Below, one piece after another: positions 17,717 to 36,280 of a DNA stretch of 64,000 bases. The stretch covers positions 62,001 through 126,000 of the forward strand of contig CAJTHM010000020.1 in the NCBI GenBank assembly GCA_910576125.1, read 5' to 3'. The first letter of the stretch is position 1; each line of letters begins with the position of its first letter. The notes below the pieces were generated by a model, which saw nothing but the letters and a program-made list of their open reading frames with translations, did not search any database and was not told where the DNA came from. Position numbers and translations under genes: made by a program. The DNA is from Lachnospiraceae bacterium (lineage in GTDB: Bacteria; Bacillota; Clostridia; Lachnospirales; Lachnospiraceae).

Positions 17717-20068
17717 TTATGCGCTTCGTTCCGTTTCCTGTTTTTTCCTGTGGTATGCTTCCCTCCTTGTGGCAAGGTAATTCTCATAGCGTTCCACCGC
17801 TTCCGGATTTCCAGTGGCGGCTTCCTCATACATTTTCTGCCGGGATTTCTTGGTGGCTTCGGATTGATACGCCCGTTTCTTTGCCAGTTCTGCCGCCGCT
17901 GCCGGGTCGGTTTCGGCTTGCTGTACCAGCTTTTCCCTTGCGATTTTCTTCCGGCTCTTGTAGGCTTCCAGACGTTCCGATTCCTCCGGCGTTAGGGCTT
18001 CCCCCTCTTTCTGGGCGGCAGCAAGCTCTTTGAGCGTCTTTGTCTTTGGCTGTCCGGCTTTCTGCCTTTCGCGCCACGCCTTATGCTGTGCGGCTTTTTT
18101 CCGGCGGTGTTCTGCAAGCCGTTCCGATTCCTCCGGCGTAAGCTCCGCCCCGGTCTTTTCCAGTTCCATAAGCTTCTTTATGGATTTTTTCTTAGGCGGC
18201 TTGGGCGGCTCTGCGGCTTTGCGTTTCTCCCGCCATTCCTTTTGTCGCTCCCGGTTGTGTGCAAGCCGCTTTTCCTCGGCTTCCAGTTCCTCCGGCGTGA
18301 GAAGCCCCGCTTTTTTCCTTGCGGTAAATTCCCGTTTCTCTGCCTTGCGCTTCTCATACCGCGCCTTTGCAAGCTCCTTTGACCGGGCTTCCTTTGCCGC
18401 CTGTTCCTCCTGCTGGCGGCGTTGTTCCTCCACCTCTGCCGGGGTGACGATATGGGCGGGTACTTCAAAAGCCCCGATAAAGTTTAGGTATATGTCTATC
18501 CGCTGGCGGCGGTCATTCCCCCGCCCCTCGCCCTCATGCACAATCACTTTCTCGATAAACTCGTTGAGCATGGGTGTTGTCAATTCAGAGAAATCAGTGT
18601 AGCGTTTCACAAGCTGGATAAACTGGTCTGTTTTCAGCTTGTCGGCGTTCCAGTTCTCAATCTGCCTCTGCCATTCCGCTATGGACGTTTCCAGCCCGGT
18701 CTGTTCCTCGTCATACTCATTCAACAGACGGGTAAAATGTTTGTCGGGTATCTTGCCCGTGGCGTTGCCCTCGTACAGCTTTTTCACAAGCCCGTCAAGC
18801 TCCTTGTGCCGCTTCTGTGCCTTGTTGATTTTCTGCTGACATTCCTTGACGGTCTTTTCTTGGTTCTGGTCGGATGCTTCCCGGACACGCTCTGTAAACT
18901 CCTTTTCGTTGTGCCGCACATACCAGCTTACCCGCTGGATAACGGCAAGGATAGTGGCTTCAATCTTCGCCGTGGGGATATGGTGCATGGTGCAGTCATG
19001 GACTAAGTGGCGGTAGCCGGAGCAGATAAAAGCGTCCTCTATCCATTTCCCTTGCACAAGGTTGTAGCGGTGTGTGAGTTTTGAGCCGCAGTCGGCGCAG
19101 TATAAAAGCCCGGTCAAACGGTTCGGGGCGTTCTGCCGCTTGGGGGCGCGGCGCACGGTTTCCCGTATCTTCTGTACGGTCTGCCACGTTTCCACGTCCA
19201 CAATGGCGGGGATTGCGCCCTCAAAAACGTGCTGTTCTTCCGGCGCGGTCTTGCGGCTGCTCTTGGTCTTGTAGTTCTCGCATACGGTTTTCCCCAATAC
19301 CTTGCGCCCCGTATATTCCGGGCGTTTCAGTATGTAGCCGATAGTGGTAGCTGACCATGCGTAGGGGTCGGCGTATTTCGCCGCTCGGACTGGCTCGCCT
19401 GTCCGTTTCCAATGCTCGGACGGGATAGGGATTTTCTCGGCGCGGAGTTCCTTTGCTATGCTGGCTATGGTTTCCCCGGCAAGGACGCTCTGGAAGATAC
19501 GGCGCACAACGGCGGCGGCTTCCTCGTCAATTATCCATTCTCCTTTTTCTTCTTTGGAAGCGCGGTAGCCATAGCAGACACTTCCCGAACATCGCAAGCC
19601 CTTTTCCATTCTGGACTTGAAAACAGCTTTGATTTTGCGGCTGGTGTCGGCAACGTACCACTCGTTTATCACATCACGGAAAATCGACATAATATCAAAG
19701 CCGTTGGCGGTGTCAAGATTGTCATTGGCGGCGATAAAACGCACATGGTATTCATCAAAGGTGCGCTTCAAAAGCCCCACTTCAACCACGTCACGCCCGA
19801 TTCGGCTCTGGTCTTTGATGATAACAGTCGCCACGTTCCCCGCCCGGATTTCGTCTAACATAGCGTCAAGCCCCGGACGCTTGAACGTAGTCCCCCGGAT
19901 TCCGTCATCAGTAAAATGCCGGATGTTGGTAAAACCGTTCTTTCTTGCGTAGTCCTCCAAAATCCGCTTCTGGTTCTCAATGCTTACGGATTCCCCGGCT
20001 CGCTCGTCGTCATGGGAGAGCCTTTCGTATAGGGCGGTGAGTTTGTCTTTCTCTGTCTGCTTCTTCAT
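17717..20068 (-). CDS. tnpX: large serine recombinase, TnpX/TndX type, with extended repeat tail
   Basis: A 783-aa recombinase, longer than the 626-aa TnpX at 7608. The resolvase domain (residues 8-160) carries YERLSHDDERAGESV with the catalytic Ser and KDQSRIGRDVVEVG. The recombinase domain and zinc ribbon (LLYCADCGSKLTHRYN) follow, then a coiled coil and the DUF4368 region (to about residue 550). Residues 589-710 hold three diverged Lys/Glu/Arg-rich repeats, each beginning LTPEE. The start at 20068 follows AAAGGAGGTTACACACC. It lies 64 bases inside the right end of the element and should catalyse its excision and insertion. Confidence 0.92.
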   Translation of the reverse strand: MKKQTEKDKLTALYERLSHDDERAGESVSIENQKRILEDYARKNGFTNIRHFTDDGIRGTTFKRPGLDAMLDEIRAGNVATVIIKDQSRIGRDVVEVGLLKRTFDEYHVRFIAANDNLDTANGFDIMSIFRDVINEWYVADTSRKIKAVFKSRMEKGLRCSGSVCYGYRASKEEKGEWIIDEEAAAVVRRIFQSVLAGETIASIAKELRAEKIPIPSEHWKRTGEPVRAAKYADPYAWSATTIGYILKRPEYTGRKVLGKTVCENYKTKSSRKTAPEEQHVFEGAIPAIVDVETWQTVQKIRETVRRAPKRQNAPNRLTGLLYCADCGSKLTHRYNLVQGKWIEDAFICSGYRHLVHDCTMHHIPTAKIEATILAVIQRVSWYVRHNEKEFTERVREASDQNQEKTVKECQQKINKAQKRHKELDGLVKKLYEGNATGKIPDKHFTRLLNEYDEEQTGLETSIAEWQRQIENWNADKLKTDQFIQLVKRYTDFSELTTPMLNEFIEKVIVHEGEGRGNDRRQRIDIYLNFIGAFEVPAHIVTPAEVEEQRRQQEEQAAKEARSKELAKARYEKRKAEKREFTARKKAGLLTPEELEAEEKRLAHNRERQKEWREKRKAAEPPKPPKKKSIKKLMELEKTGAELTPEESERLAEHRRKKAAQHKAWRERQKAGQPKTKTLKELAAAQKEGEALTPEESERLEAYKSRKKIAREKLVQQAETDPAAAAELAKKRAYQSEATKKSRQKMYEEAATGNPEAVERYENYLATRREAYHRKKQETERSA

Positions 20069-20115
20069 GGTGTGTAACCTCCTTTCTTTGAGGGTGCGCG
20101 CTTCCCTATAACCCT

Positions 20116-20145
20116 ATTATACTTATCTGTTCGGATCAGTGACAA
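20116..20145 (-). promoter_or_regulatory. split promoter of the recombinase at the right end of the element
   Basis: On the minus strand the -10 TATAAT (20121-20116) lies inside the element. In the integrated state the nearest -35-like hexamer is TTGTCA (20145-20140), in flanking virD4 DNA, with an 18-base spacer. The left end of the element carries a consensus TTGACA (10029-10024) facing outward. Circularization would place it 16 bases from the TATAAT and make a near-consensus promoter. Confidence 0.6.
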
Positions 20146-20215
20146 CGTAGGAACTGTGCATCTGCATAAGGTTTGGTTTTACGAAAAACCTCGTCTTGCC
20201 CGAACCGGAGCCGCC
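20133..20215 (-). pseudogene. virD4: virD4-like coupling protein, Walker A fragment
   Basis: Reads GGSGSGKTRFFVKPNLMQMH, then SSYVVTDP, the P-loop region of a VirD4/TraG coupling ATPase. On the left it joins in frame to the fragment ending at 10020 once the intervening element is removed. On the right the similarity stops at the first Gly codons, and prophage sequence begins. The rest of the 5' end is not in the window. Confidence 0.85.
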
Positions 20216-20295
20216 CGATTCTGTCAACTATACACTAACAAATTTTTCAAAAAAATTTACGGCCCCCAGACCTCCCCGTCCAGGCGCCGCATCCC

Positions 20296-21849
20296 TCACT
20301 CCATTTCATCCCCAAAATTCCACCGAACCTCAATCCTCCCATCCGAATAAACACAGGCCCCCTTCACGAACCTCTCCCAAATCTCCTCTGTCATCTCCCC
20401 CACATCCAGAAAAGACCGCGCCGCATCCACCCGCTCTCGCGCCTCCCCATACTCATCCCTAACAGCCCTCTCCGCCACCCCCGCATCCAAAATCTCCCGC
20501 TCCAGCCTCCCAATCTCCACATCATACCCCCTCTTCCTCTCCAAAAACTCCTCCCTCCCAATCTCCCTGTCCGCCAACCTCTCGAACAGCCTCCGCTTCG
20601 CTTTCTTCGCCGCCTCCAGCGCATTCCCCAGGCTCTCCAGCCTGTTCCCCTCCGCCGGGGCATCCCCCATCCTCCCCAGCCTCATCTCTTCCTCGTCCAG
20701 CACCCGCCGCAGCTTCCGCTTCAGCTCCCCTAGCACCACCTCGTCCGCCTCCGGCTCTTTCATCACCACCCGCCCACACTCACACTCCTTCAACATATAC
20801 CCCCGGATACAGTAAAGGTCCGTCCCGTTCCGCTTGGTCAGCCGCTTCCCGCACACCCCACAGGCATAACGCACCTTCCGCTTCCCCACCGCCCGCTTCT
20901 GCGGATTTACCATCTCCTGCACCCGCCCGAACTCCTCCTTCGTGACAATCGCCTCATGCATCCCCTCCACGCGCACCCATTCCCCCTCTGGCCGCGCCAC
21001 CTGCTTCCCCGACCTGCCGTCCACCCTGCTCCTCAGGGAAACCACAGCCCCCGTGTAAATCTCATTCTGGAGCACCTTGTTGACGACGCTCCCCGTCCAG
21101 CACATCATCCCAAATCCCCCCGTCCTGTTCGTCACCTCCCCCTTTTCATGCAGGAACACCGTGGGACAGGGTATGCCCCGGTCATTCAAATTCCTTGCGA
21201 TATCGCAGACCCCCACCCCGGCCAGCCGCATGTCAAAGATCTCCCGGACAACCGGAGCCGTCTCCGGGTTCAGCTCCAACCTGTGCTTATCCGCCTTCGT
21301 CTTCCTGTACCCATAACTCACCTGCACCGCAGAATACTTCCCCTGCAGCGCCATCCTCTCCTTCGCCTGCCTCACCTTCCTGGACAAATCCCTGGAATAA
21401 ATATCATACACCAGATTCTTGAAAGCGATATCCAGCCCTCCCTCGTCCTGCTCACTGTCATAACGGTCATTGACCGAAATAAACCTCACCCCCAGGAACG
21501 GAAACAGCTGCTCCAGATAATCCCCCAGCTCCACATAGTCACGCCCGAACCGGGAACAGTCCTTCACAATGATGCAGTTCACCTTCCCCTGCTTTGCCAG
21601 GCCAATCATGTCCGTAAACTGCGGCCTGGTATCAAAATACCTCCCCGAAAGCCCGTCATCGCACCGCTCAATCACCCGGCACCCCGCAAATTCCGGCTGC
21701 CTTCCTATAAAATCCATAATCAGGCTCCGCTGTGAAGTGATGCTCCCACTCTCCACCTTCCTCCCGAAAACATCCCTGTCCTCATTAGAAAGCCGCATAT
21801 AAGCACATATAGTATAATCCGCCGGAATCGCCCCCGTCTTCCCCATCAT
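20296..21849 (-). CDS. large serine recombinase 1 of 3 (prophage)
   Basis: A 517-aa protein. The resolvase domain (residues 10-165) carries ICAYMRLSNEDRDVFGRKVE, with the nucleophile Ser after MRL, and KDCSRFGRDYVELGDYLEQL. The recombinase domain contains SYGYRKTKADKHRLELNPET. The zinc ribbon is YACGVCGKRLTKRNGTDLYC plus a later CECG. A coiled coil follows. The ATG overlaps the stop of recombinase 2 (ATGA), so the three genes form one operon. All catalytic residues look intact. It may be the integrase or a partner subunit. Confidence 0.9.
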   Translation of the reverse strand: MMGKTGAIPADYTICAYMRLSNEDRDVFGRKVESGSITSQRSLIMDFIGRQPEFAGCRVIERCDDGLSGRYFDTRPQFTDMIGLAKQGKVNCIIVKDCSRFGRDYVELGDYLEQLFPFLGVRFISVNDRYDSEQDEGGLDIAFKNLVYDIYSRDLSRKVRQAKERMALQGKYSAVQVSYGYRKTKADKHRLELNPETAPVVREIFDMRLAGVGVCDIARNLNDRGIPCPTVFLHEKGEVTNRTGGFGMMCWTGSVVNKVLQNEIYTGAVVSLRSRVDGRSGKQVARPEGEWVRVEGMHEAIVTKEEFGRVQEMVNPQKRAVGKRKVRYACGVCGKRLTKRNGTDLYCIRGYMLKECECGRVVMKEPEADEVVLGELKRKLRRVLDEEEMRLGRMGDAPAEGNRLESLGNALEAAKKAKRRLFERLADREIGREEFLERKRGYDVEIGRLEREILDAGVAERAVRDEYGEARERVDAARSFLDVGEMTEEIWERFVKGACVYSDGRIEVRWNFGDEME

Positions 21850-23549
21850 TCCCCACCATCCCTTCCCTTTTCTGCCAGCTCCGCCAGTTCCTCCGCAAAA
21901 GTGTACTCCACCTCAAACCGGCCGCTGCCGTAACATACAATCCTCTTTATGAACGCCACGGCCATCTCCCTTGTCAGCTCTCCCGCCCCAAGGTACTTCC
22001 CGAAAACCGCCGCCATTTCCCCATTCCCGGCATAATCCAGAGCAAGCCCTTCCAGCTCCGCCTGCAGCGCCGCAATCTCCGCGTCCAACTCCTCCAGTTC
22101 CGAGACATACCCAGCCTTCACCTCCAGATACTCCTCCTCAGAGAAAACACCGTCAGCAAAATCCTCATACAAAGCCTGGATGAAGCCGCCAATCTTCTCC
22201 CTGCGGGCTTCTTTCCCGGAAAGCGCTTCCTCCGACGCAGACCTCCTTCCCGCCGCCTCCGGCCCCCGGTTCAGCGCCTGCATCCGCTCCCTGGCATCCA
22301 CATACACCGCCATATGCGCCTTCAGCAGCTCCAGCACAAGTACCTCCAGCACCTCCGCCTTGACGTTCTTCGGCGGGTCCGCCTCCCCGTAGGTGGCCGT
22401 TCGCCTGCACACATAAGTGCTGTAATGCCCATAGCCGCCCGCCAGCTTCACCGTCTTCCGGTACAGGTTCATCTTGTTCCCGCAATGCCCACAGAACAGC
22501 AGCCCCTGCAGCTTATCCTCCCTCCGGTTCCGGTCTCCCACCGCATTCTCCCTTGCTGAAAAATACTCCCTCTTCCTGGCCTGCAGGAGCTCCTGCACCC
22601 GGTCAAAAGTCCCATGGTCAATGATGGCCTCATGGTGCCCCTCCACATAGAAGCGCTCCCCCTTATCCCTGAACACCGGCTTCGTGATGCCCCTATAATA
22701 TGCCCGGTAACTCTTGGAAATCTCCACATCCCCGGTATAGACCACATTCTCCAGTATCCGCCTCACCTGCTTCCCCTCCCACAGGTTCGCATACTTCTGC
22801 TTCCTGGCCACCCCGGCGCCCTGCCAGTAGACCCCCGGTGCCAGGATGCCGTCCTCATTCAGACCTCTTGCAATCCGCGCTAGGCTCCTCCCTTCCAGCC
22901 GCTCCCGGAAAATCCTCACCACCACGTCCCTCACGTTCCCATCCACCAGCAGGCCGTGGCCGTCCTCCGGATCCTTCCTATACCCATACGCCACCCTCGT
23001 CGCCGGATAGACCCCCTTCTCAAACATCCCCTCAAAGGTAGAGCAAATCTTCTTTGAGACATCCTTCGCATACGCCTCATTGATGAGGTTCTTCAGCGGC
23101 ACCACCAGCCCGTCCTCCGCCGCGCCAGCCGTAAGGCTGTCATAACAATCCGTCACCGCAATGAACCGCACCCCGAAGAACGGGAAAATCTTCTCAATAT
23201 AATCCCCGGCCTCCAGATAGTTCCTCCCAAGCCTCGACAGGTCCTTGACCACGATACAGTCAATCTTCCCCGCCCTCATGTCCGCGACCATCCGGTTGAA
23301 CTCCGGCCGGTCAAACCTCGTGCCGCTTACATGCCGGTCAACATACACCCCCGCCAGCTCCAGCGACGGCTCCCCGGCCACATAATCCTCCAGGAGCGCC
23401 CTCTGGTTCTCCACCGTGTCGCTCTCTATCTTCCTTCCGTCTTCTCTGGACAGCCGCACATACACCGCCGTCCGATAGACCCTCATGCCCGCTGCCAGGG
23501 CCGGCACCGCCACAGCCTCCCTGCTCCCCTTCCTGCTCTTCCTCGCCAT
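21846..23549 (-). CDS. large serine recombinase 2 of 3 (prophage)
   Basis: A 567-aa protein. The resolvase domain has AVYVRLSREDGRKIESDTVE and KDLSRLGRNYLEAGDYIEKI, with the catalytic Ser and Arg present. It contains VAYGYRKDPEDGHGLLVDGN, a zinc ribbon (LLFCGHCGNKMNLYRKTVKL with a distal Cys), and an Ala/Glu-rich coiled coil (about residues 425-530). It starts one base before the stop of recombinase 3 and overlaps recombinase 1 by 4 bases. It is most similar in layout to recombinase 3. Confidence 0.9.
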   Translation of the reverse strand: MARKSRKGSREAVAVPALAAGMRVYRTAVYVRLSREDGRKIESDTVENQRALLEDYVAGEPSLELAGVYVDRHVSGTRFDRPEFNRMVADMRAGKIDCIVVKDLSRLGRNYLEAGDYIEKIFPFFGVRFIAVTDCYDSLTAGAAEDGLVVPLKNLINEAYAKDVSKKICSTFEGMFEKGVYPATRVAYGYRKDPEDGHGLLVDGNVRDVVVRIFRERLEGRSLARIARGLNEDGILAPGVYWQGAGVARKQKYANLWEGKQVRRILENVVYTGDVEISKSYRAYYRGITKPVFRDKGERFYVEGHHEAIIDHGTFDRVQELLQARKREYFSARENAVGDRNRREDKLQGLLFCGHCGNKMNLYRKTVKLAGGYGHYSTYVCRRTATYGEADPPKNVKAEVLEVLVLELLKAHMAVYVDARERMQALNRGPEAAGRRSASEEALSGKEARREKIGGFIQALYEDFADGVFSEEEYLEVKAGYVSELEELDAEIAALQAELEGLALDYAGNGEMAAVFGKYLGAGELTREMAVAFIKRIVCYGSGRFEVEYTFAEELAELAEKGRDGGE

Positions 23550-23550
23550 G

Positions 23551-25203
23551 TCAGACCGCCTCCTCCCCGTACTGCATCACAAAACGCTCCATTTCCTCCG
23601 CCTCCCTCTCAAACCGGTAGGACACCTGCAAGGTCTCCGAGTCCATGACCTCCACCCGGTCAATGAGGACCGCCGCCAGCCCCCGCTCAAGCCTCTCCAC
23701 GCCCTTATACCGCTTCAGCGCATCGACCCATTCCTGCCCGGCCGTCCGCCCAGTCCGAAGGCCAGCTTTCTCCTTTTCCAGGGACATAATGGAATCCTCT
23801 ATCCTGGCCGCTTGCTCCTGATACTGCTCCCGAAGCATGGAATACTCTTCCTTCGTGAGGATGCCGTCCTTGAAATCCTCATACAGGTTCTTCCGCCTCC
23901 TGCCGCATTCCTCCGCCTCTTCCCTCAGCTTCGCAATCCGGCTTTCGACCTTCCCCACATCAGGCGCCATCCCCGACACCCTGCCAACAATCTCCGCCGC
24001 CTCGGACAGCATCAGCACCTTTCCGATAAAAGTCTGCATCAGCGCCAACACGCTCTCCTCCAGCTTCTTTGCGGAAAAGCTGTGGGATGAGCAGGAATCC
24101 CTGTCCCTCTTATGCCCGGAGCAGACATAATACACATACCTCTTATTCCCGGAAGAGACCGTCTTGCGTACCATCGGCTCCCCGCAGCCTCCACAGAACA
24201 CCATCCCGGCCAGCGGGAACACCCGCCCTTTCTGCGGCGACACCCTTGTATCCCTCGCAAGCAGCGACTGCACCAGTTCAAACTCGCTCCTGCCCACAAT
24301 CGCCTCATGGGCATCCTCCACACGGACCCATTCGCTCTCGTCCTTATACATGCGCTTCTTGACCTTATAGCTCGGCGTGGTGCATTTCCCCTGGACCACC
24401 GTACCGACATACACCTCATTCTTCAAAATCCGCAGGACCGCATTATAGCTCCACTTCGGCTCCATGCCCTTCTGGAAAGAGCTTTCCAACCGGATGCCGA
24501 TGCTCCGCTTATACTGGAGCGGCGACAGGATGCCGTCACGGTTCAGCTTGTCTGCTATCGCTTTCAGGCTGCATCCGGCCAGCTTCATGTCGAAGATATC
24601 CCGCACCACACCCGCCGCATATCCGTCCACCACCAGATGGTTCCTATCTTCCGGATCCTTCAGGTACCCATAGGCAGCAAACGCCCCAATATACTCCCCG
24701 TTCCTCCGCTTGACCTCCATATGGCTCCGTATCTTCACGGAAATGTCCCTGCAGTACGCATCATTGATGAGGTTCTTGAACGGGATGACCATGTCGTTCC
24801 CATACTGCTCGTCCAGACTGTCATACCCGTCATTGACGGCAATGAAACGTACCCCAAGCATGGGAAATATTTTCTCAATATACCTCCCGGACTCAATATA
24901 GTTCCTCCCAAACCGGGACAGATCCTTTACGACCACGCAGTCAACAGAACCTTCCCGGATGTCATCCAGCATCCTCTGGAATTCTGGCCTTTGAAAATCA
25001 ACGCCGCTCCACCCGTCATCCACATACACGGAATAGACCTGGATCTCGGCGTGGGACCCCAGATAGTCCATGACCAGCTCTTTCTGGTTGGAGATGCTGT
25101 TGCTGAAAGCCCTGCCGCCCTCCGCAACATCACCTTCCTCCCTGGACAGCCGCAGGTACACAGCTGCATGATATGTTTTAGAAATAGAATCTAACGCTCC
25201 CAT
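23551..25203 (-). CDS. large serine recombinase 3 of 3 (prophage)
   Basis: A 550-aa protein. I start it at the ATG at 25203 (MGALDSISKTYHAAVYLRLS), 7 bases after AGGAGG; an upstream extension is open but has no ribosome site. The resolvase domain keeps the catalytic Ser (YLRLSREEGD) and KDLSRFGRNYIESGRYIEKI. The zinc ribbon is MVFCGGCGEPMVRKTVSSGN plus CSGHKRDRDSC. It is the first gene of the three-recombinase operon, about 200 bases downstream of the DUF6870 gene. Confidence 0.9.
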   Translation of the reverse strand: MGALDSISKTYHAAVYLRLSREEGDVAEGGRAFSNSISNQKELVMDYLGSHAEIQVYSVYVDDGWSGVDFQRPEFQRMLDDIREGSVDCVVVKDLSRFGRNYIESGRYIEKIFPMLGVRFIAVNDGYDSLDEQYGNDMVIPFKNLINDAYCRDISVKIRSHMEVKRRNGEYIGAFAAYGYLKDPEDRNHLVVDGYAAGVVRDIFDMKLAGCSLKAIADKLNRDGILSPLQYKRSIGIRLESSFQKGMEPKWSYNAVLRILKNEVYVGTVVQGKCTTPSYKVKKRMYKDESEWVRVEDAHEAIVGRSEFELVQSLLARDTRVSPQKGRVFPLAGMVFCGGCGEPMVRKTVSSGNKRYVYYVCSGHKRDRDSCSSHSFSAKKLEESVLALMQTFIGKVLMLSEAAEIVGRVSGMAPDVGKVESRIAKLREEAEECGRRRKNLYEDFKDGILTKEEYSMLREQYQEQAARIEDSIMSLEKEKAGLRTGRTAGQEWVDALKRYKGVERLERGLAAVLIDRVEVMDSETLQVSYRFEREAEEMERFVMQYGEEAV

Positions 25204-25405
25204 ATGCAATCCTCCTGTCCTGTTCTTCCTTATCCGGTGCCCAATCCGGATAACCCAGAAAACCAGAGGCCGCACAGGCAATAGTCCTTTAGGATTCCAA
25301 CTTACCACGGATTCCATGGCATTTCCATGACTTGGGGCAATGTCCTGCGGACTTCCTGCAATGTCCCAGATTCACAGCGTCCGAAGAGTCATAGACTCCG
25401 AAGAC

Positions 25406-27717: not shown

Positions 27718-29112
27718 TCACGCCTCCTCCGTCAGCGTATAGGTAATCTTCATGGTCTTGTTCGCATCCTTCACCACCGCCGAAGCCAGGTTGTTTATCG
27801 TGGCCAGATACGGCGTCAGCAGGTACATATGCCGGTACTCGTTCCCATAGCTGCCTCCCCATCCCACCAGGAACTGCTTGTACTGGAACAGCGGCGTGGC
27901 CGCACACCCCAGCCTTGCGCTCCCCTGGGTATGGATGACCTGGCCATCCGCCGTGACCTGGAAATCCCCGCCGACCACCAGGTCCCCCACCAGCGTCAGG
28001 TACAGCTCGCAGGTCCCGGACTCACACAGCGGCTTCATCTTGGAAGTGAACCCGAACGGGATCAGCAACACATCCGCCGTGTTCGCCACATTGATTTTGT
28101 AGATCCCCTTCTTGTCATAGGCCGGCACATACAGATACCCGCCCCGCATACAGCACCGGCAGTTTCTCTCCGGATAGGTGTTGTCCATATCCCGCTCCCC
28201 CACCGCCATCAGCTTCGCGTTGGACAGCGTCCACTCCCCCTCCGTCAGGGAATAGTCCTCCTTAGAAATCTTCACCCACAGCATCTTCGCGCTCCCGGAA
28301 GAATTCCCCTCATTGGAGAACCCGTACCAGTACCCATCCTTCCCGTCCAGGAACTCCCCGTACTTCGTATAGCTGCCCAGGAACAGGAACGTCTCCGTGG
28401 CCGCCGCATGGTCCTCCAGCACCGTGTAGGTGGAATCATCCAGCTTCTCATTCAGCCCCACCGTAAAGATCGGGATGCGCACCTTCCTGACCCGCACGCT
28501 GGAATCCTCAAACGTGATGGAATACAGCATGTCATTCCCGAAATCTACCTCCACCGCCTCGAACAGCACCGCCTGCTTCGCCGTCCCCAGATTCCCGATG
28601 TCTAACATCTTAATCTTCAAAAAAGCGCTGCCATCCCCCACAATGCTCCCGTACCCATTCTGCCCGCCCTGGGCACTGGTCAGAGCCACCGCCGCGATTG
28701 TGCCGTTCCCCTGGCTCGGCGTGAACTCCCACACAAACTTATACCCATTCTCCAGCGGCTTGCTCTCCGTCTGATTCATGCTCCCCCTGGCCGTGTTCGC
28801 CGTGGTGTTCACGTTATTTGAGGCATACGCCACCGGCAGGTTGCCCGAACCCTCATAGATATGCGCTGCATCCTCCTCCAATGCCTGCGGAAAGAGCAGG
28901 ACGCCCCCGACCATGTTCGGACAGATAGGCAGCAGCACATTGTTCCACGCAAGCACATCCCCCAGTTCCTTCTCCGAATAGAACACCCCCATGGGGTTCA
29001 TTCCCAGGATGTCGTTCACCGCCTCCGTCACCATGTTCTCCTCCGTGACGCTCTCCACCTCGCCCGTCTCCACATCCGTAAGTTCCAGCACCATTGTCCC
29101 TTTCAGCTTCAT
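27718..29112 (-). CDS. phage tail/baseplate protein, unassigned
   Basis: A 464-aa beta-rich protein (MKLKGTMVLELTDVETGEVE; later KFVWEFTPSQGNGTIAAVAL and YVPAYDKKGIYKINVANTAD). Its place after the tail hub gene and before the holin is where siphophages encode upper-baseplate or receptor-binding proteins. Its start overlaps the hub gene stop by 4 bases. The repeated strand-turn patterns suggest a propeller-like or trimeric beta structure, but I do not recognise a specific family. Host recognition is an inference. Confidence 0.7.
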   Translation of the reverse strand: MKLKGTMVLELTDVETGEVESVTEENMVTEAVNDILGMNPMGVFYSEKELGDVLAWNNVLLPICPNMVGGVLLFPQALEEDAAHIYEGSGNLPVAYASNNVNTTANTARGSMNQTESKPLENGYKFVWEFTPSQGNGTIAAVALTSAQGGQNGYGSIVGDGSAFLKIKMLDIGNLGTAKQAVLFEAVEVDFGNDMLYSITFEDSSVRVRKVRIPIFTVGLNEKLDDSTYTVLEDHAAATETFLFLGSYTKYGEFLDGKDGYWYGFSNEGNSSGSAKMLWVKISKEDYSLTEGEWTLSNAKLMAVGERDMDNTYPERNCRCCMRGGYLYVPAYDKKGIYKINVANTADVLLIPFGFTSKMKPLCESGTCELYLTLVGDLVVGGDFQVTADGQVIHTQGSARLGCAATPLFQYKQFLVGWGGSYGNEYRHMYLLTPYLATINNLASAVVKDANKTMKITYTLTEEA

Positions 29113-31064
29113 CCAGTCCCCTCTCCTTCCTGCGGCAGCTCCACCGGCATCCCGAAAGCGCCTACCGCCGCCCTCCGGATGCTGTCGGAATAATATTTCT
29201 TCACCAGCTCCATTGTCTCAAAGCCCATCTCCCCGGAAAACGCCTTCGCCTGCAGCCCGCCCATGAGCGCAAACGGCTGTACATATTCCTCAACCGTGAT
29301 GGTGCCGTCCCACGCCGCGCCGGCCGCCATGCCCTGGCCGCTGATGGAAGCGATGCACCCGCCCGTCCCGATCTGCGCCGTGCCGCCCTCCATCCGCAGG
29401 TGGACATTGAACGTGTTCGTGACATTCGGCACAAGCCCGTCAATCGGATAATACAGGGAAAGGATATGCTTCCCGCTCCCCCAGGTCTCCGCCGGATAAT
29501 GCACCAGGACCTCCAAATCATTGAATTCATAGGTGACATGCGCCACTGCTTTCCCGTCCTCCGTCCAGGTCACCGGGAGCTCCACGTCCACCGTGACACT
29601 CCCCTCATCCGTCCCCGGCTCCCCGCTGCCATCCGTCCCCGTTCCAGCCTCTACCGCATCGATCCCTGCTTCATCTGCCCCGGCCTCTGCCGTACCACCG
29701 GCAGCATCCCCGTCACCGCTCCCCATGCCACCGCCGGCGGCTCCCGATACCGGGAACGGAACCACAATGCTCCCCCTCGCAGTGGCAGACCGACCCACCG
29801 GCTCCGCCGACACATCCACCAGCACCTGCCCGAAAAACTGCACATGGGTCTCCTCCTTCGCCGCGAACTCGATGCTGATGATCCTCACATTGGTCTCCGC
29901 CACCGTATAAGCGGACGCATTGGTAAAGTTGTGTATCCCGACCTTCCCCGCCTCGATTTGGTTCAGCAGCCCGGAGATGTTCTTGTCGTTCTTCGACTTC
30001 GCCTGCGCCAACCGCGGGTTCTTCCCCACGCACTTCAGCCTCTGCTTCCCGCCGATCCTACAGTCAAAAGAGGTGATACAGGCAATCTGCGCCCCGTCCG
30101 CCTGCCCGCCCGTGAACGTCAGCACGTCCCCCAGGTCCAGCGCCGGGTTCCCGATGGTGCTGGTGTCAAAAGGTACATAATTCACCGCCGCCAGGTCCAC
30201 CAGGATATTCCTGCAAAGCTGCTCCCTGGTCTCCTCCAGCCCGAACTGCAGGAGCGGGTTCACCGCCAGGTTCATGGTCAGCCCGTCATCCGGCTCCAGC
30301 GCATAATACTCCGCCGTCTGCGTCCGCAGGTTCGTGGAGCTGACCGCCGTGTACCGGGTGATGAAGTCGGAAAAGCTGCTGGTGAACCGGTGCCTGCTCT
30401 TTACCTCCATCACCGGCTCCGCCCCATACTTCCTCAGCTCCAGCTTCCCCTCCCGGTTGATGCAGAAGAACCCGCCCAGCACCTGCCCCACAAAATACAG
30501 CACGTCCCGGTACGTCCCAATGTCATTCTCCGGATAGACCGACAGCAGCTCCGCCCCGTTGGGCATCCCCTCAATCTCCTCCTTTGTATGCGCCAGCCCC
30601 ACGTTACACGCCCTGCAGCACAAATCCAGGAAAGCCCAGGCATTCCCCACGGTCTCAAACCCGTTGATCCCCTTCTCAAACCGCAGCATATAGTCATAGG
30701 CTTTCAGCTCCAGGCAGTGCGCCGTCCGGTTCGCCTCGCTGACCTCGAAGATGCCCATCGGCACCTCCTCATAACTCCCATCCGCAAGCCGCAGATGGTA
30801 GGACAGCCGCACTTCCGCCCCTTCCAGCGTGTACCGGTCCACCTGCGAAAAGAGCGTGACCCCCATCTCCGCCGCGTACACCGTCCCCAGCTCGATCTCC
30901 GCGCTGCCGCAGCACTGCGCCGTGACATACCCGCTCCCCTTCACGATATCCTCATACCCGAAAGGATAGACCGCGCCGCCCTTCGTCCTGATCTCCCCCG
31001 TCCAGTAATACCGCCTGGCATTCTCCTGCACCGCCTGCAGGAACGCACTGCTCACCGGGTACAT
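29109..31064 (-). CDS. tail hub/tail-associated structural protein
   Basis: A 651-aa protein starting MYPVSSAFLQAVQENARRYY at the ATG at 31064, 7 bases after GGAAAGGGGT. The N-terminal 350 residues resemble phage baseplate-hub proteins (YTLEGAEVRLSYHLRLADGS, VPMGIFEVSEANRTAHCLEL). Roughly residues 440-500 are a Gly/Ala/Asp/Glu-rich low-complexity linker (GSGDGDAAGGTAEAGADEAG) before a C-terminal beta domain. It is the first tail gene after the NTPase insert. No protease motif is evident. Confidence 0.75.
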   Translation of the reverse strand: MYPVSSAFLQAVQENARRYYWTGEIRTKGGAVYPFGYEDIVKGSGYVTAQCCGSAEIELGTVYAAEMGVTLFSQVDRYTLEGAEVRLSYHLRLADGSYEEVPMGIFEVSEANRTAHCLELKAYDYMLRFEKGINGFETVGNAWAFLDLCCRACNVGLAHTKEEIEGMPNGAELLSVYPENDIGTYRDVLYFVGQVLGGFFCINREGKLELRKYGAEPVMEVKSRHRFTSSFSDFITRYTAVSSTNLRTQTAEYYALEPDDGLTMNLAVNPLLQFGLEETREQLCRNILVDLAAVNYVPFDTSTIGNPALDLGDVLTFTGGQADGAQIACITSFDCRIGGKQRLKCVGKNPRLAQAKSKNDKNISGLLNQIEAGKVGIHNFTNASAYTVAETNVRIISIEFAAKEETHVQFFGQVLVDVSAEPVGRSATARGSIVVPFPVSGAAGGGMGSGDGDAAGGTAEAGADEAGIDAVEAGTGTDGSGEPGTDEGSVTVDVELPVTWTEDGKAVAHVTYEFNDLEVLVHYPAETWGSGKHILSLYYPIDGLVPNVTNTFNVHLRMEGGTAQIGTGGCIASISGQGMAAGAAWDGTITVEEYVQPFALMGGLQAKAFSGEMGFETMELVKKYYSDSIRRAAVGAFGMPVELPQEGEGTG

Positions 31065-31083: not shown

Positions 31084-31118
31084 CAAAAAGCACCAGCCAT
31101 TCCTGACTGATGCCTTTT
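31084..31118 (-). terminator. rho-independent terminator of the inserted NTPase gene
   Basis: On the minus strand GCATCAG pairs with CTGGTGC (one G-T pair) and is followed by TTTTTG. It lies between the NTPase stop (31170) and the next tail gene (start 31064), inside what should be one late operon. Confidence 0.7.
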
Positions 31119-31169
31119 AGTCTGCTATTTTCAACACAGATAACTATTTACCTCTATACTTCTTTCTAC

Positions 31170-32801
31170 TTATTTTTTACTCGTAATTTCTTCTAAAATA
31201 ACATCAATTCTATGTGTTGCCATATTATCACAGTGCGTTTTCAATTCCTTACAATAATCTAAAAGTCTATCTTTATTCTCATGATACAATACATACATAA
31301 TATTATAAGCAGTCCAATACCGTTGCTCAGTTACATCATAAATTGGAAACGATTTTTCATTATACAAAGAGTCCACATTACCTGAAATATCATTTTGGAA
31401 AAAAACATTATCCATAAACTTTCTGAGATTATATGAATACTGGAAAGCCTGATCTCCCTGTGTATTCTCAGAAAGATATTTTATATGATCAATGATTACC
31501 TTCCTTGTGACAACATTACATACATCTTTGACAACACTTTGATTTACTGAGGATTGCATATGAAATGCATTTACGCCAAATGTCAGGTAATCTATGACAC
31601 CCTTCATAACTTCATTATAAATCATTGAAATAAGTCTATCCTTGTATTCATTTTTTATTTGTCTAGTATCCAGTTGTAAATGCTCACTCCAAATAAAATA
31701 TTCATCAGCATACTGTACTATTGCCGCAATATTAGTCTCTTGTCTAATTTTTTCAGCCAAGTCAGGTAATAGCTGTTTTATTTCTTCATCTGTTTTATAA
31801 TAATTTGCTTTTCCGCCAGCTCGTATAAATACTTGATATCCAGCATCAATCTCATCAGCAGTTATATCTGTTTCATTTTTATAATATTTTTGCAACATCT
31901 CAACTATACTATTGCTTATTCGGATTCCATAGCGGTGAGCAATTCTTTTTTCGAGTGTATTATTGATTTGCTGCACAATGTTCAACGTTTCATTATCTTG
32001 AGTGTTATCAAGTTTTTTCTCATATAAGTTCTCAATCGTCTCAACTACTATAGCATAACAAACCAATCGGATTTCATCATAATATTCTTCTTTATAATTA
32101 TTTATCAGCTTCAGTCTAACATCATCATATAGATTCTGTGCCTTTTGCAGTGTTCTCAAATTCTTGACATGATGTTTGCTCAGAAAGTCCTCAATAAAAT
32201 CATGATGAATTCCTAATTTCCTCCATTCAACTGTTCCAGGACGTTCCGTAATATAATATGTCCTATCAATTACCTTTTCGCTATATTTTTTAAATATATC
32301 TTGTTGTGACAATTGTTCTATATTAGCAACCAAAATGATTTTAACGTAATTACATTTTTTTAATTCATCTATAATACCAAATACTTCTTCCAGCCTAATA
32401 TTCTCATTCATCCTTTCCATATCATCTATCACAATATAATGAATCTTATTGAAAGTTTCAGATATTTTGAGGAATAATTCTTTCTCCTGTACCAAAGATT
32501 CTATAACACTCTTCACAACAGATATTTTATTTGAAAAAAATGCAGCAACTCTTTCAACTTTAGAAAATATATTACGAATTGAGTATTTATCCTTCATAAC
32601 CAGCTGGAAAAAAACTTCATGGTATATTTTCTGGGCATCTCTCATCCCAAACATTGAAATATGACATGCATCACTCTTATTTCCCAACATTTCATTTATT
32701 GCATATGACTTGCCTACTCCCCATGGACCACTAATAAGAATACATTTGTACGGCGATTTGTCATACGACTCTATTATATCCTTTATATAATCAGCTCTCA
32801 T
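31170..32801 (-). CDS. KAP-like P-loop NTPase, candidate phage-defence moron
   Basis: A 543-aa protein with the ATP-binding core at the N-terminus: Walker A ILISGPWGVGKSYAINEMLG and Walker B HYIVIDDMERM, followed by a sensor-like strand (VKIILVANIEQLSQQD). This pattern fits the KAP/STAND class that includes the exclusion protein PifA. The C-terminal 300 residues are helical and unassigned. The ATG at 32801 follows GTGAGGTTAAGG; a GTG four codons earlier is also open. The gene is AT-rich in a GC-rich tail operon and has its own extended -10 promoter and terminator. It is not a structural gene. I infer expression in the lysogen and a defence or superinfection-exclusion role. Confidence 0.75.
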   Translation of the reverse strand: MRADYIKDIIESYDKSPYKCILISGPWGVGKSYAINEMLGNKSDACHISMFGMRDAQKIYHEVFFQLVMKDKYSIRNIFSKVERVAAFFSNKISVVKSVIESLVQEKELFLKISETFNKIHYIVIDDMERMNENIRLEEVFGIIDELKKCNYVKIILVANIEQLSQQDIFKKYSEKVIDRTYYITERPGTVEWRKLGIHHDFIEDFLSKHHVKNLRTLQKAQNLYDDVRLKLINNYKEEYYDEIRLVCYAIVVETIENLYEKKLDNTQDNETLNIVQQINNTLEKRIAHRYGIRISNSIVEMLQKYYKNETDITADEIDAGYQVFIRAGGKANYYKTDEEIKQLLPDLAEKIRQETNIAAIVQYADEYFIWSEHLQLDTRQIKNEYKDRLISMIYNEVMKGVIDYLTFGVNAFHMQSSVNQSVVKDVCNVVTRKVIIDHIKYLSENTQGDQAFQYSYNLRKFMDNVFFQNDISGNVDSLYNEKSFPIYDVTEQRYWTAYNIMYVLYHENKDRLLDYCKELKTHCDNMATHRIDVILEEITSKK

Positions 32802-32892
32802 CCTTAACCTCACTTTTGATACAAATCTACATTCATATTGTATCTAGCAGCAACCCGTCACTTACATAAATTGTTTTTCAGTCTGCAGTTCC

Positions 32893-32930
32893 ATTATATC
32901 AAACATCTTACAAAAAATCATCCACTACTT
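32893..32930 (-). promoter_or_regulatory. promoter of the inserted NTPase gene
   Basis: On the minus strand an extended -10 (TGATATAAT, ending at 32893) is preceded by an AT-rich -35 area with only weak match to TTGACA. It lies about 90 bases upstream of the ATG at 32801, directly after the stop of the upstream tail gene. Confidence 0.6.
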
Positions 32931-32934
32931 AACT

Positions 32935-33297
32935 CTAAAACTCCTTCAGCGTAAAACTCACCTTCCACAGCCCCTTATAGGACGTATCCTTCACAAGGCT
33001 TGCCTTATAGCCGCTTATGAACATCTCCGCCCGCTTCACCTCCAGCGTCCCCGTGTCGAAATAATCCACCGCCAGCTTCTCCTTCTGCTTGAGCCCCGTC
33101 AGCACCTTAAGCCACTTCGGGGAGACCGAGAACGCGGCGGGGATGGACACCACGCCCATCCTCACCACGTCCCTCTGCGTGGTCCCGGCCTCCGTCTCGC
33201 CCCCGGAATCCGCCTCCACGTCCCTCATCTGCACCTCATAGGAATCCGGCAGGGGCAGCGGCACCCCGTCAAGCGTCAGATACTGTATATACGCCAT
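32935..33297 (-). CDS. phage tail protein, DUF6711-like
   Basis: A 120-aa protein starting MAYIQYLTLDGVPLPLPDSY at the ATG at 33297, after GGAAGGGAGGCGCAT. It is beta-rich and ends in FISGYKASLVKDTSYKGLWK, VSFTLKEF. This type is encoded directly after the tape-measure gene in Firmicutes siphophages and is probably a small distal-tail component. The next late gene on this strand after it is interrupted by the NTPase insert. Confidence 0.7.
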   Translation of the reverse strand: MAYIQYLTLDGVPLPLPDSYEVQMRDVEADSGGETEAGTTQRDVVRMGVVSIPAAFSVSPKWLKVLTGLKQKEKLAVDYFDTGTLEVKRAEMFISGYKASLVKDTSYKGLWKVSFTLKEF

Positions 33298-33343
33298 ATG
33301 CGCCTCCCTTCCGCCCCATCGGCACAAACACCAATGAATTCCA

Positions 33344-36280
33344 TCAGCGTCCCCCAGACCGTAAATTTTGCCTCGCCTGGGCGTCCACCACCACCTCATC
33401 CAGCAGCGTCCCGCCCACATACACGGGGATGCAGATGGTCCCGCCGCCTGCCATCCCCTGCAGGCCGGAAAGCATCTCCTTCAGGCCGCCCAGCAGCTCC
33501 CTCACCGAAGAATCCCCGGAAGCACTGCCGCCGCCCTGCGCCCCCTGGACAGCCGCCTGGGGCTGCAGCATCAGGTCAGACGCCACATCAGCCACGGCCC
33601 TCTTCACCATGCCCCGGCCCTTCTCAATGCCCTCCGCAAGCCCGGCCATGAAGTCCGGCATCCAGCTCTCATAATCCGTCAGAGGCCCCTCATCTGGCAC
33701 GGAGAAATGCAGGAAGGACCGTATCTTGTCCGCCACATCCGACACGGCGCTGATCACATTCCCGATAGCGCCCCGGATGCCATCCGCAATCCCGTTGATG
33801 AAATCCTTCCCCCACTGCAGCGCCTTCCCCGGCAGCGAAGTGATGAAACTGATGGCCGACTGGAACCCGGACTGCACCACGCTCCCCAGGGAAGACAGCG
33901 CAGACCCGATCCCGGACACCATGGCCTTGAACGCATTTACCGCCGCCTGTTTCAGGCTGGACGCAATGGACACCACCAGGTTCTTCAGCCCGTTCCAGGC
34001 GACCGAAGCCGTATTTTTGACCGCCGCCCAGATATTGGCGACGGTATTTTTCAGCCCGGTAAACAGGATGACGACATGGTTCACCAGCCCCTGGGCCAGC
34101 GACCCAACCACCTGTTTGATGCCGTTCCAGATATTTGACGCCGCATTCTGGATATTCGTCCAGATATTCAGCGCATCCTCTTTCAGCTTTGTGAAATTCC
34201 CCGTCACCAAGTCGATCAGCAGGAGCACCGGCCCCAGCACCACGTTCTTGATCAGCTCCCACGCCCCGGAAGCCGCCGTCTGAATCCCCTGCCAGATGCC
34301 CTGCAAAGTGGTGGAAAGGTTCTCCCACAGGGAACGTATCATATCCACAATCCCGGAAAGCACCGGGTTCTCCATCATCCCCGTCCAGACATTGCTGAAA
34401 AAGTCACCCACGGACTGCCACAGCCCGCTCCACCACTCCGGGATCCCCTCGAAAAACGAAACCAGGGACTCCCATGCCGCCGGTATGGTTTCTGTAAAGA
34501 AAGAACAGATGACCTGCCACGCCGAAACGAAAAACTCCTTGATCTGCGTCCAGATGGCATTGACCGCATCCCGGAACCACTCGCACTTGTTCCACAGCAC
34601 CACCAAAATGGCGACAACAGCCGCAATCGCCAGCGGCACCCACCCGATAGCCGCCACCACCGCAGAGATCGCCGGGATCACCGTCCCGGACACAAAAGCG
34701 ACCACGCCGGAAATGGCCCCCGCAATCTGCGGCACCACCGTCATGATCGTTCCAATGGCCCCTACCACCTTCCCGACCACGACCAGCACCGGCCCCAGCG
34801 CGGCCGCCACTAGCGCCACCGTGACAATGATCTTCTTCGTCCCCTCGTCCAGGCTGTTCAGCCAGTCCACCAGCCCCTGGATCCATCCCACGATCTGCCG
34901 GATATACGGCATCAGTATCTCCCCGATGGAGATAGCCAGCTCCTCCAGCTGGCTCTTTAAGATGGTGAGCTGCCCCGCAAGGTTATCCTGCATGGTGGCC
35001 GCCATCTTCTCCGCCGTGCCGTCACAGTTATTGATGGCGCTGTTCAGCTTCTCAATGTCCCCAGGCGCGGCGTTCATCACCGCCAGGAACCCGCTCATGG
35101 CGTTCTTCCCCACCAGCGCCTCCGCGTTGGCCGCCTTCTCCGACTCGGACATCTGCACAAATGCCGCCCGGCAGTCCGCGAGGATGTCCCCCAAGCTCCT
35201 CATGCTCCCGTCCGTGTTGGTGGTCTGCACCGTCAGCTCCCCGAAGGCGGCCCCGGTAAACTTCACCTCCCCGGTCAGGTTCGTCATCATGGAGCGCATG
35301 GCCGTCCCCGCCTGGGAAGACTTGATCCCCGCGTTCGCCATCAGCCCGATGGCCTCCGCCGTATCCTCCGCCGTGAACCCCAGCGCCCCGGCCACCGGCG
35401 CACAATACTTGAACGTCTCCCCCATCATGGCCACGTTCGTGTTCGCATTTGAGCTTGCCGCCGCCAGGATATCCGCGAAATGCCCCGAATCCTCCGCCGA
35501 CAGCCCCAGAGCCGTCAAAGCGTCCGTCACGATGTCGGAAGTAGTCGCCAGGTCCTCCCCGGAAGCCGCCGCCAGGTTCATGATCCCCTCGATGCCGGAA
35601 AGCATATCCCCGGTCTTCCACCCGGCCATGGCCATGTAGTTCATGGCCTCCGCCGCCTCGGAAGCGGAAAACTTCGTCCTGCTCCCCATCTCCCGCGCCT
35701 TGTCCCGCAGCGCCTCCAGGTCCTTCCCCGTCGCCCCGGAAACCGCCGCCACCTGGCTCATGGCCGAGTCAAAGTCAGCCGCCACCTTCACCGCGGCCGT
35801 GCCCAGACCGCCCACGGCAGCCGTGACCGGCATCAGCTTCTTCCCCACTCCCTCGATGGCGGAACCCACACCCTGCAGCTTCTCCCCGGCGGCCCCGATC
35901 TTCTGCAAGGCCACGGCAGACCTGCCCGCCTGCTGCTCCAAATCCCGCAGGCTGTTCTCCGTCTCGATGATCTCCCTCTGCAATGCGTCATACTGCCCCT
36001 GGGAGATCTCGCCCCTCGCCAGCGCCTCATTCGCCTGCTCCGCCGCCGTCTTCAGCGTCTCCAGCTTCTCCTTCGTCTCACGGACCGCATCCCCCAGGAG
36101 CCGGTGCTTCTGCGCCATCAGCTCCGTGTTGCCGGGGTCCAGCTTCAGCAGCTTCTCCACATCCCTAAGCTGTGACTGCGTGTTCCGGATCTCCGTGTTC
36201 ACGCCCTTAAGCGCCGTCTGCAGCTTCGTGGTATCGCCGCCGATCTCCACGGTGATGCCCTTGATCCTGTTTGCCGCCAC
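33344..36280 (-). CDS. phage tail tape measure protein
   Basis: A 978-aa protein. The N-terminal coiled coil (GDTTKLQTALKGVNTEIRNT, QSQLRDVEKLLKLDPGNTEL) is followed by a TP901-type core (AMSQVAAVSGATGKDLEALR, KFSASEAAEAMNYMAMAGWK), hydrophobic stretches around residues 500-575 (VALVAAALGPVLVVVGKVVG), and a helical C-terminus with tryptophan-rich repeats (WNGLKNL, IWNGIKQV). Its length sets tail length. It follows the tail assembly chaperone genes in the standard siphovirus order. Confidence 0.93.
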   Translation of the reverse strand: MAANRIKGITVEIGGDTTKLQTALKGVNTEIRNTQSQLRDVEKLLKLDPGNTELMAQKHRLLGDAVRETKEKLETLKTAAEQANEALARGEISQGQYDALQREIIETENSLRDLEQQAGRSAVALQKIGAAGEKLQGVGSAIEGVGKKLMPVTAAVGGLGTAAVKVAADFDSAMSQVAAVSGATGKDLEALRDKAREMGSRTKFSASEAAEAMNYMAMAGWKTGDMLSGIEGIMNLAAASGEDLATTSDIVTDALTALGLSAEDSGHFADILAAASSNANTNVAMMGETFKYCAPVAGALGFTAEDTAEAIGLMANAGIKSSQAGTAMRSMMTNLTGEVKFTGAAFGELTVQTTNTDGSMRSLGDILADCRAAFVQMSESEKAANAEALVGKNAMSGFLAVMNAAPGDIEKLNSAINNCDGTAEKMAATMQDNLAGQLTILKSQLEELAISIGEILMPYIRQIVGWIQGLVDWLNSLDEGTKKIIVTVALVAAALGPVLVVVGKVVGAIGTIMTVVPQIAGAISGVVAFVSGTVIPAISAVVAAIGWVPLAIAAVVAILVVLWNKCEWFRDAVNAIWTQIKEFFVSAWQVICSFFTETIPAAWESLVSFFEGIPEWWSGLWQSVGDFFSNVWTGMMENPVLSGIVDMIRSLWENLSTTLQGIWQGIQTAASGAWELIKNVVLGPVLLLIDLVTGNFTKLKEDALNIWTNIQNAASNIWNGIKQVVGSLAQGLVNHVVILFTGLKNTVANIWAAVKNTASVAWNGLKNLVVSIASSLKQAAVNAFKAMVSGIGSALSSLGSVVQSGFQSAISFITSLPGKALQWGKDFINGIADGIRGAIGNVISAVSDVADKIRSFLHFSVPDEGPLTDYESWMPDFMAGLAEGIEKGRGMVKRAVADVASDLMLQPQAAVQGAQGGGSASGDSSVRELLGGLKEMLSGLQGMAGGGTICIPVYVGGTLLDEVVVDAQARQNLRSGGR

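Follow-up and report, generated by a model that had tools for sequence, protein, structure and literature searches.

A KAP-type NTPase gene occupies a variable junction in the tail operon of a Lachnospiraceae prophage and may encode an antiphage protein

The window, a 64,000-nucleotide stretch of a Lachnospiraceae bacterium genome, contains a prophage on the minus strand with PHROGs matches to serine integrase, endolysin/amidase, holin, major head, portal, terminase and primase/helicase proteins. By eye, a row of four large serine recombinase-like open reading frames occupies positions 17717–25317 of the window, and the profile-scanned one is that at 23551–25317. The phage is siphophage-like, and its tail region harbours a gene for a KAP-type P-loop NTPase between a small tail-region protein and a protein that we refer to as the hub (Table 1). 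The latter label is that of the original prediction, the PHROGs annotation being tail protein. The same prediction had taken position 31084 as the start of the gene unit; this position marks the end of the terminator, and the gene itself runs between 31170 and 32801. Translation gives 543 residues from the ATG at 32801 and would give 547 from an alternative GTG lying 12 nt further upstream. The leader of the gene also contains an inverted repeat (GATACAA...TTGTATC, 32818–32844), a possible operator or hairpin. As originally described, the gene is AT-rich: the gap between the small and hub genes has a GC content of 30.9% versus 60.5 and 61.8% in the flanks, and GC3 is 26% in the KAP gene versus 81% in the hub gene and 84% in the tape measure gene.

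Table 1. Features at and around the KAP gene, in coordinates of the window.
Feature	Position	Strand	Basis
Serine integrase, prophage lysis side	23551..25317	-	phrog_95 integrase, E 5.8e-107
Tail hub-like protein, 651 aa, downstream neighbour	29109..31064	-	phrog_23052, E 1.8e-291; phrog_6616 tail protein, E 1.2e-29
Predicted intrinsic terminator hairpin and T tract	31084..31119	-	16 pairs, loop GGAA, -21 kcal/mol, z -8
KAP-type P-loop NTPase gene, 543 aa, moron cargo	31170..32801	-	open frame; Pfam, PADLOC and PHROGs matches
Putative ribosome binding site GTGAGG of KAP gene	32808..32813	-	read directly from sequence
Putative extended -10 promoter element TGATATAAT	32901-32893	-	sequence scan; 33 nt beyond upstream TAG
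Weak -35-like hexamer ATGATT	32916..32921	-	17-nt spacer; 3/6 consensus matches
Small tail-region protein, upstream neighbour	32935..33306	-	phrog_1194 (family of unknown function), E 8.9e-20
Tail tape measure protein	33344..36280	-	phrog_1272, E 8.7e-202; TIGR01760

KAP family proteins combine a Walker A motif with a Walker B motif that features a conserved acidic pair and an arginine. Both motifs named in the original prediction (GPWGVGKS and VIDDMERM) are present in the 543-residue protein. In a 24-row alignment, G25, W27, G28, G30 and K31 of Walker A are nearly invariant and D126, D127, E129 and R130 are invariant. The protein passes the curated cutoff of Pfam KAP_NTPase (PF07693; 26.9 bits, cutoff 20), and because AAA_22 scores slightly higher (29.4 bits, cutoff 27), the P-loop assignment is a broad one. 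It also matches phrog_4740, a family of unknown function (E 1.6e-32), and the PADLOC candidate PDC-S49 (E 1.8e-18). PADLOC listed no other model at E up to 1, which takes the assignment no further than the broad KAP class, and the link to PifA drawn in the original prediction was overstated. In KAP NTPases the catalytic domain reportedly carries inserted transmembrane segments, and some members of the family lack them. Hydropathy analysis identified no transmembrane helix in this protein (highest 19-residue mean 1.09), which speaks against a membrane-embedded KAP protein.

The predicted structure of the full-length protein (pLDDT 83.9, pTM 0.52) suggests an N-terminal AAA+/STAND-like NTPase, with structural matches including Cdc6/ORC, TnsC, MuB and RdrA. 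The N-terminal domain aligned with RdrA over 247 residues (Z 11.6, rmsd 5.4), and an Avs5 filament ranked 16th among the matches (E 2.1e-3). STAND/Avs-type immune NTPases join a P-loop domain to a sensor made of helical repeats and to an effector domain. Folded alone, the C-terminal domain was modeled as all-helical (pLDDT 85.9, pTM 0.63), with a weak likeness to HEAT/ARM solenoids. This agrees with the earlier description of a helical C-terminal portion of 300 residues with no assignment: Foldseek returned no match for this domain at E 0.001 or less, the best VIA-align result (Z 9.9, rmsd 8.4, 166 residues aligned) was below the trust level for helical proteins, and a profile sequence search of solved structures gave one chance-level match. 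In a BFVD search with the full model, three matches passed E 0.001 and none of these showed a KAP immune protein; a KAP-domain protein of Megaviridae ranked 24th. Pfam profiles revealed no nuclease domain, and no effector domain was identified in the protein. The best reading of the model is that of a sensor-plus-switch ATPase.

Morons are extra genes of temperate phages, and the original prediction had proposed that the gene is one, adding that relatives should be inspected for other genes at this site. We collected loci through matches to either the hub or the small protein, leaving the cargo out of account (at most 80 loci per search, in one of them the best 80 of 170), and ran a second search from a distant clade (the best 80 of 153; 10 of 81 loci were without one of the genes). 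The window itself was counted among the sites; one locus, L001, was first found via its KAP gene and then again via both neighbours. Only distinct junctions were retained, a double-counted contig (L026, L186) and near-identical sites (L156, L159) being reduced. Among the loci listed, 23 of 97 distinct small-to-hub junctions were filled (478–2899 bp) and 74 were closed (2–42 bp), whereas inserts were found in one of 101 tape-measure-to-small junctions and four of 73 hub-to-next junctions. In the second clade, 23 of 56 small-to-hub junctions were filled among the loci listed. The looser counts before merging were 25/101 for the small-to-hub junction, 1/106 and 4/75 for the adjacent ones and 25/60 for the second clade. 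A second prophage copy in the window's own genome (L176), with a 96% identical hub, has a closed junction of 39 bp. The junctions come from related phages and are non-independent; since the loci are moreover a sample, we give proportions rather than significance, and the argument for a hotspot is that neighbouring junctions differ so much within one and the same set of phages. The KAP unit separates two genes that adjoin each other in relatives, and we consider it almost certain that it is a moron at a hotspot. Relatives do carry other genes there, and a structural gene conserved in related phages, which the original prediction had named as a refuting outcome, is not what the closed junctions display. 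Two further observations concern these loci: the tail junctions on either side hold their inserts in L135, L076, L138, L157 and L168, and the match to the second, 96% identical hub gene of the window's genome (G000:C9:3417-5345) is broken by one TAG.

The putative extended -10 element was found after the upstream stop codon, where it had been predicted. The sequence TGATATAATG occurs once in the 64 kb versus 0.15 expected, but it was also present in 14 of 100 shuffles, and the gap is richer in AT than the window. A separate promoter scan of the first 110 nt of the gap gave p=0.02. At the other end of the unit, the predicted GCATCAG hairpin with its T run proved to be a strong candidate terminator, its hairpin being longer than the GCATCAG stem, and none of 200 shuffles was as good. 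It sits just upstream of the ribosome binding site of the hub gene. A ready-made promoter and terminator scan of the window listed neither the -10 element nor the hairpin, so the promoter especially depends on recurrence in relatives. Several relatives with other cargo have a -10 at a nearly equal distance from the stop, and only eight of the 23 filled sites reached p 0.05. The sequence of the unit thus points to a terminator of its own and to a promoter-like element common to part of the sites, in support of the autonomous moron that had been proposed.

Terminators distinguish filled from empty junctions: among the loci listed, they were found in 21/23 filled versus 0/74 empty ones. The corresponding proportions in the second clade, among the loci listed, were 21/23 versus 2/33 at the same score and 23/23 versus 3/33 at a lower score. 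The last 60 nt resembled those of the window in 15 of 22 sites (≤1/200 shuffles) and the first 60 nt in nine of 22 (≤5/200 shuffles), L001 being included in both, although these shuffles preserve base composition only and terminators are partly alike anyway; by the same test, 7/22 sites have another terminator or none and 13/22 another leader. The slot interiors are unlike that of the window except in L001, which carries an 84% identical KAP copy in the same slot with gene, promoter and terminator intact. In the second clade, a different terminator is common to different cargo. We infer from these comparisons that the frame was kept while the cargo was replaced. A dispersed cassette was considered and rejected: the strict terminator pattern matched four viral contigs, all of them slot loci, and as the pattern was derived from slot loci, only the absence of further matches is informative. 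Within the window's own genome, its promoter and terminator patterns gave one match each and no second copy. Direct repeats at the slot ends were suggested in L024 and L123 (p 0.002 each) but not in the window (p 0.126), with a combined p of 0.01 over the 23 sites. We also observed a 94-bp small-to-hub junction (L321) with a terminator hairpin and no cargo gene, as if the cargo had been lost. In the window, positions 32900–32930, before the -10, resemble a degenerate copy of the terminator 3' arm and T tract (31085–31110), perhaps the scar of an earlier cassette.

In all 23 filled sites the longest open reading frame lies on the tail strand and the GC content is lower than in the flanks. We scanned ten cargo proteins from nine sites, picked as larger or odder, with PADLOC: five, from four sites, matched strongly, one weakly (L083), and four had no match. 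The strong matches were PDC-S45 in L042, PDC-S31 in L027, ATPase-Toprim in L051, where the gene looks broken, and both AbiLi and AbiLii in L130. The cargo of L035 matched a CAP12 TIR domain below threshold. Other cargo includes TipAS regulators and SdpI-like, OmdA-like, TfoX C-terminal, DUF2992 and DUF6483 proteins, together with VapBC, GNAT and transposase genes named by eye; that of the second clade has, by eye, a regulatory or metabolic appearance. Some cargo recurs, namely TipAS (L156 and L165), DUF2992 (L024 and L026), KAP (the window and L001) and, by eye, DUF2971 (L027 and L070). The slot is general-purpose, with defence as one of its uses and much of the cargo unrelated to defence. The slot gene of L132 encodes a 239-residue protein with no family match; a stretch with distant likeness to KAP proteins (L132:1590-2132; 27% over 184 columns of the alignment) lies elsewhere in this phage contig and may mark a further moron site.

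Strong KAP relatives were found in four genomes of a family sample of 299, the window's own included. We read the neighbours of relatives at 14 loci (L190–L203) of 55 (L190–L244). The best segments of these 14 relatives are 40–67% identical, three of them are broken (L199, L200 and L201), and no small or hub protein of the window's phage type was found near any of the 14. Six lie near restriction-modification (RM), AbiL-type, AbiH or Tmn genes. In L192 the relative is immediately preceded by the end of a type III RM pair, and a type II RM pair lies upstream of that in L193 with three open reading frames between. AbiLi and AbiLii immediately precede the relative in L197, an AbiL-like ATPase precedes that in L200, AbiH follows that in L198, and in L202 the relative is flanked by a type IIG RM gene on one side and Tmn on the other. 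In the other eight, no named defence system was identified among the neighbours scanned. Nine of ten PADLOC-scanned neighbours chosen for their defence-like look gave a match, as did two of ten further neighbours (PDC-S04, which is a Fic-type candidate, and a methylase with a weak match); among genes 5–7 kb away in the same loci, named defence systems numbered 0/10 and candidate PDC models 2/10. For named systems there is a real association between KAP genes and defence, but it is small and comes from few loci that are not a random sample. PADLOC candidates PDC-S01 and PDC-S31 were also seen a few kb from KAP relatives (L202:14191-15447 and L191:2183-2656, respectively). No constant partner gene accompanies the 14 relatives, which speaks against a two-gene defence system. 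More distant relatives occur in other phages: that of Campylobacter phage CJIE4-1 is encoded three genes past the annotated CI repressor on the same strand, a placement compatible with lysogenic expression. In phage SPbetaL1, a relative and a gene annotated as that of Gad1, an anti-Gabija protein, are ~3.8 kb apart. Several relatives, by eye, resemble cargo of ICE-like elements.

Going beyond the original prediction, the KAP unit is one occupant of a common, swappable slot, and some relatives of its protein adjoin defence genes. We propose that the unit, a moron, fills a fixed slot that one siphophage-like prophage and viral contig family carries between the small tail protein gene and that of the hub. 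The promoter would allow transcription of the cargo in the lysogen, where the late operon is silent, and the terminator would keep this transcript from the hub gene and those after it; transcription of the late operon would have to read through the cargo terminator. Homologous recombination within the conserved frame and the tail genes on either side is the probable route of cargo exchange. The helical C-terminal domain of the KAP protein may sense a component of an invading phage, and nucleotide-driven activation of the AAA+/STAND-like NTPase could then halt infection through abortive infection or exclusion. The protein is most likely a lysogen-expressed, single-gene, STAND-like antiphage protein. 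We hold expression in the lysogen to be likely, and an antiphage role to be probable with somewhat less assurance; the latter is suggested by association, through the PDC-S49 match and the relatives near RM, AbiL, AbiH and Tmn genes, and the idea that the unit may be an undescribed exclusion system is a plausible possibility. The fullest version of this proposal is a plug-in slot across a large family of temperate gut phages, in which a fixed promoter-terminator frame in the tail operon receives swapped cargo, sometimes leaving the terminator alone as in L321, and in which the window's cargo would be a single-gene immune NTPase with its own helical sensor domain; we consider it possible but less likely than not.

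The main competing explanation is that the KAP protein is expressed in the lysogen for another fitness task, such as stress response, plasmid or ICE exclusion, or counter-defence. The TipAS-type regulators and the SdpI-like and OmdA-like proteins in the slot, and acetyltransferases and metabolic genes recognised by eye among the cargo, count in favour of this explanation, as do the ICE-like setting of several relatives and the proximity of the SPbetaL1 relative to Gad1. The six relatives of 14 near defence genes and the PADLOC candidate match speak against it, and we regard it as rather unlikely.

Position and strand inside the tail operon would also suit a virion or tail-assembly gene, yet the gene is absent from the 74 closed junctions of the 97 listed, including that of the second prophage in the same genome. 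Its relatives reside outside the window's phage type and its GC3 is foreign; we rejected a tail or structural role on the closed junctions and the location of the relatives, and consider it extremely improbable. Foreign composition could also point to a recently inserted, functionless passenger, for which the transposase-like open reading frame recognised by eye in the slot of L070 and the three broken relatives could be cited. However, dN/dS between the window and L001 is 0.20 overall (0.15 and 0.27 in the two halves), and gene, promoter and terminator are intact in L001 too, and we regard a passenger as very unlikely.

If the slot works as proposed, a single tail-gene junction across gut phages would give access to a catalogue of genes expressed in lysogens, some of them antiphage candidates, and because each cargo would come with its own promoter and terminator, these should be easy to clone and test. 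The arrangement raises the questions of how late transcription passes a strong terminator ahead of tail genes, and how the phage escapes harm from an immune gene lying in the path of its late transcript. On the latter question, one of autoimmunity, we considered the prophage defence Tha (PMC11087260).

Among titles and the beginnings of abstracts, a literature search found no paper on the slot or the KAP protein, and PDC-S49 is mentioned in none of the papers searched. This PADLOC 2023 candidate aligns its positions 20–322 of 624 with residues 14–291 of the KAP protein, and the C-terminal part is not covered by the match. PifA, which the original prediction places in the KAP class, has this class in common with our protein; the latter is without a transmembrane helix, and PADLOC gave no PifA row for it at E up to 1. 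PifA reportedly senses T7 proteins and depolarises the membrane (PMC8594841). Tmn, reportedly a KAP NTPase containing two transmembrane domains (PMC11846954), shares the KAP class with our protein and differs from it in these domains. The Tmn of L202 aligns with the KAP protein over 34 Walker A columns only, and no Tmn row was returned for the KAP protein by PADLOC at E up to 1, the Tmn model being included.

The window unit, with its predicted promoter and terminator, resembles morons, which are extra genes between genes adjacent in relatives, with their own promoter and terminator and a deviant base composition. They differ from the present slot, where promoter and terminator are partly common to sites with different cargo; a frame shared across cargo implies that the slot, and not one gene, is conserved. 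Classical morons were reportedly not observed in Clostridium clostridioforme prophages (PMC11318856). The term moron is used in a study of P2 and P4 phages, which describes defence hotspots at a fixed site with alternative cargo, some of it antiphage (PMC9122126). The P2/P4 hotspots share with our slot a fixed site in a phage family and alternative cargo that is in part antiphage. Unlike them, the slot lies inside a tail operon, its cargo is on the tail strand in 23/23 sites, and its set of genes is broader than defence.
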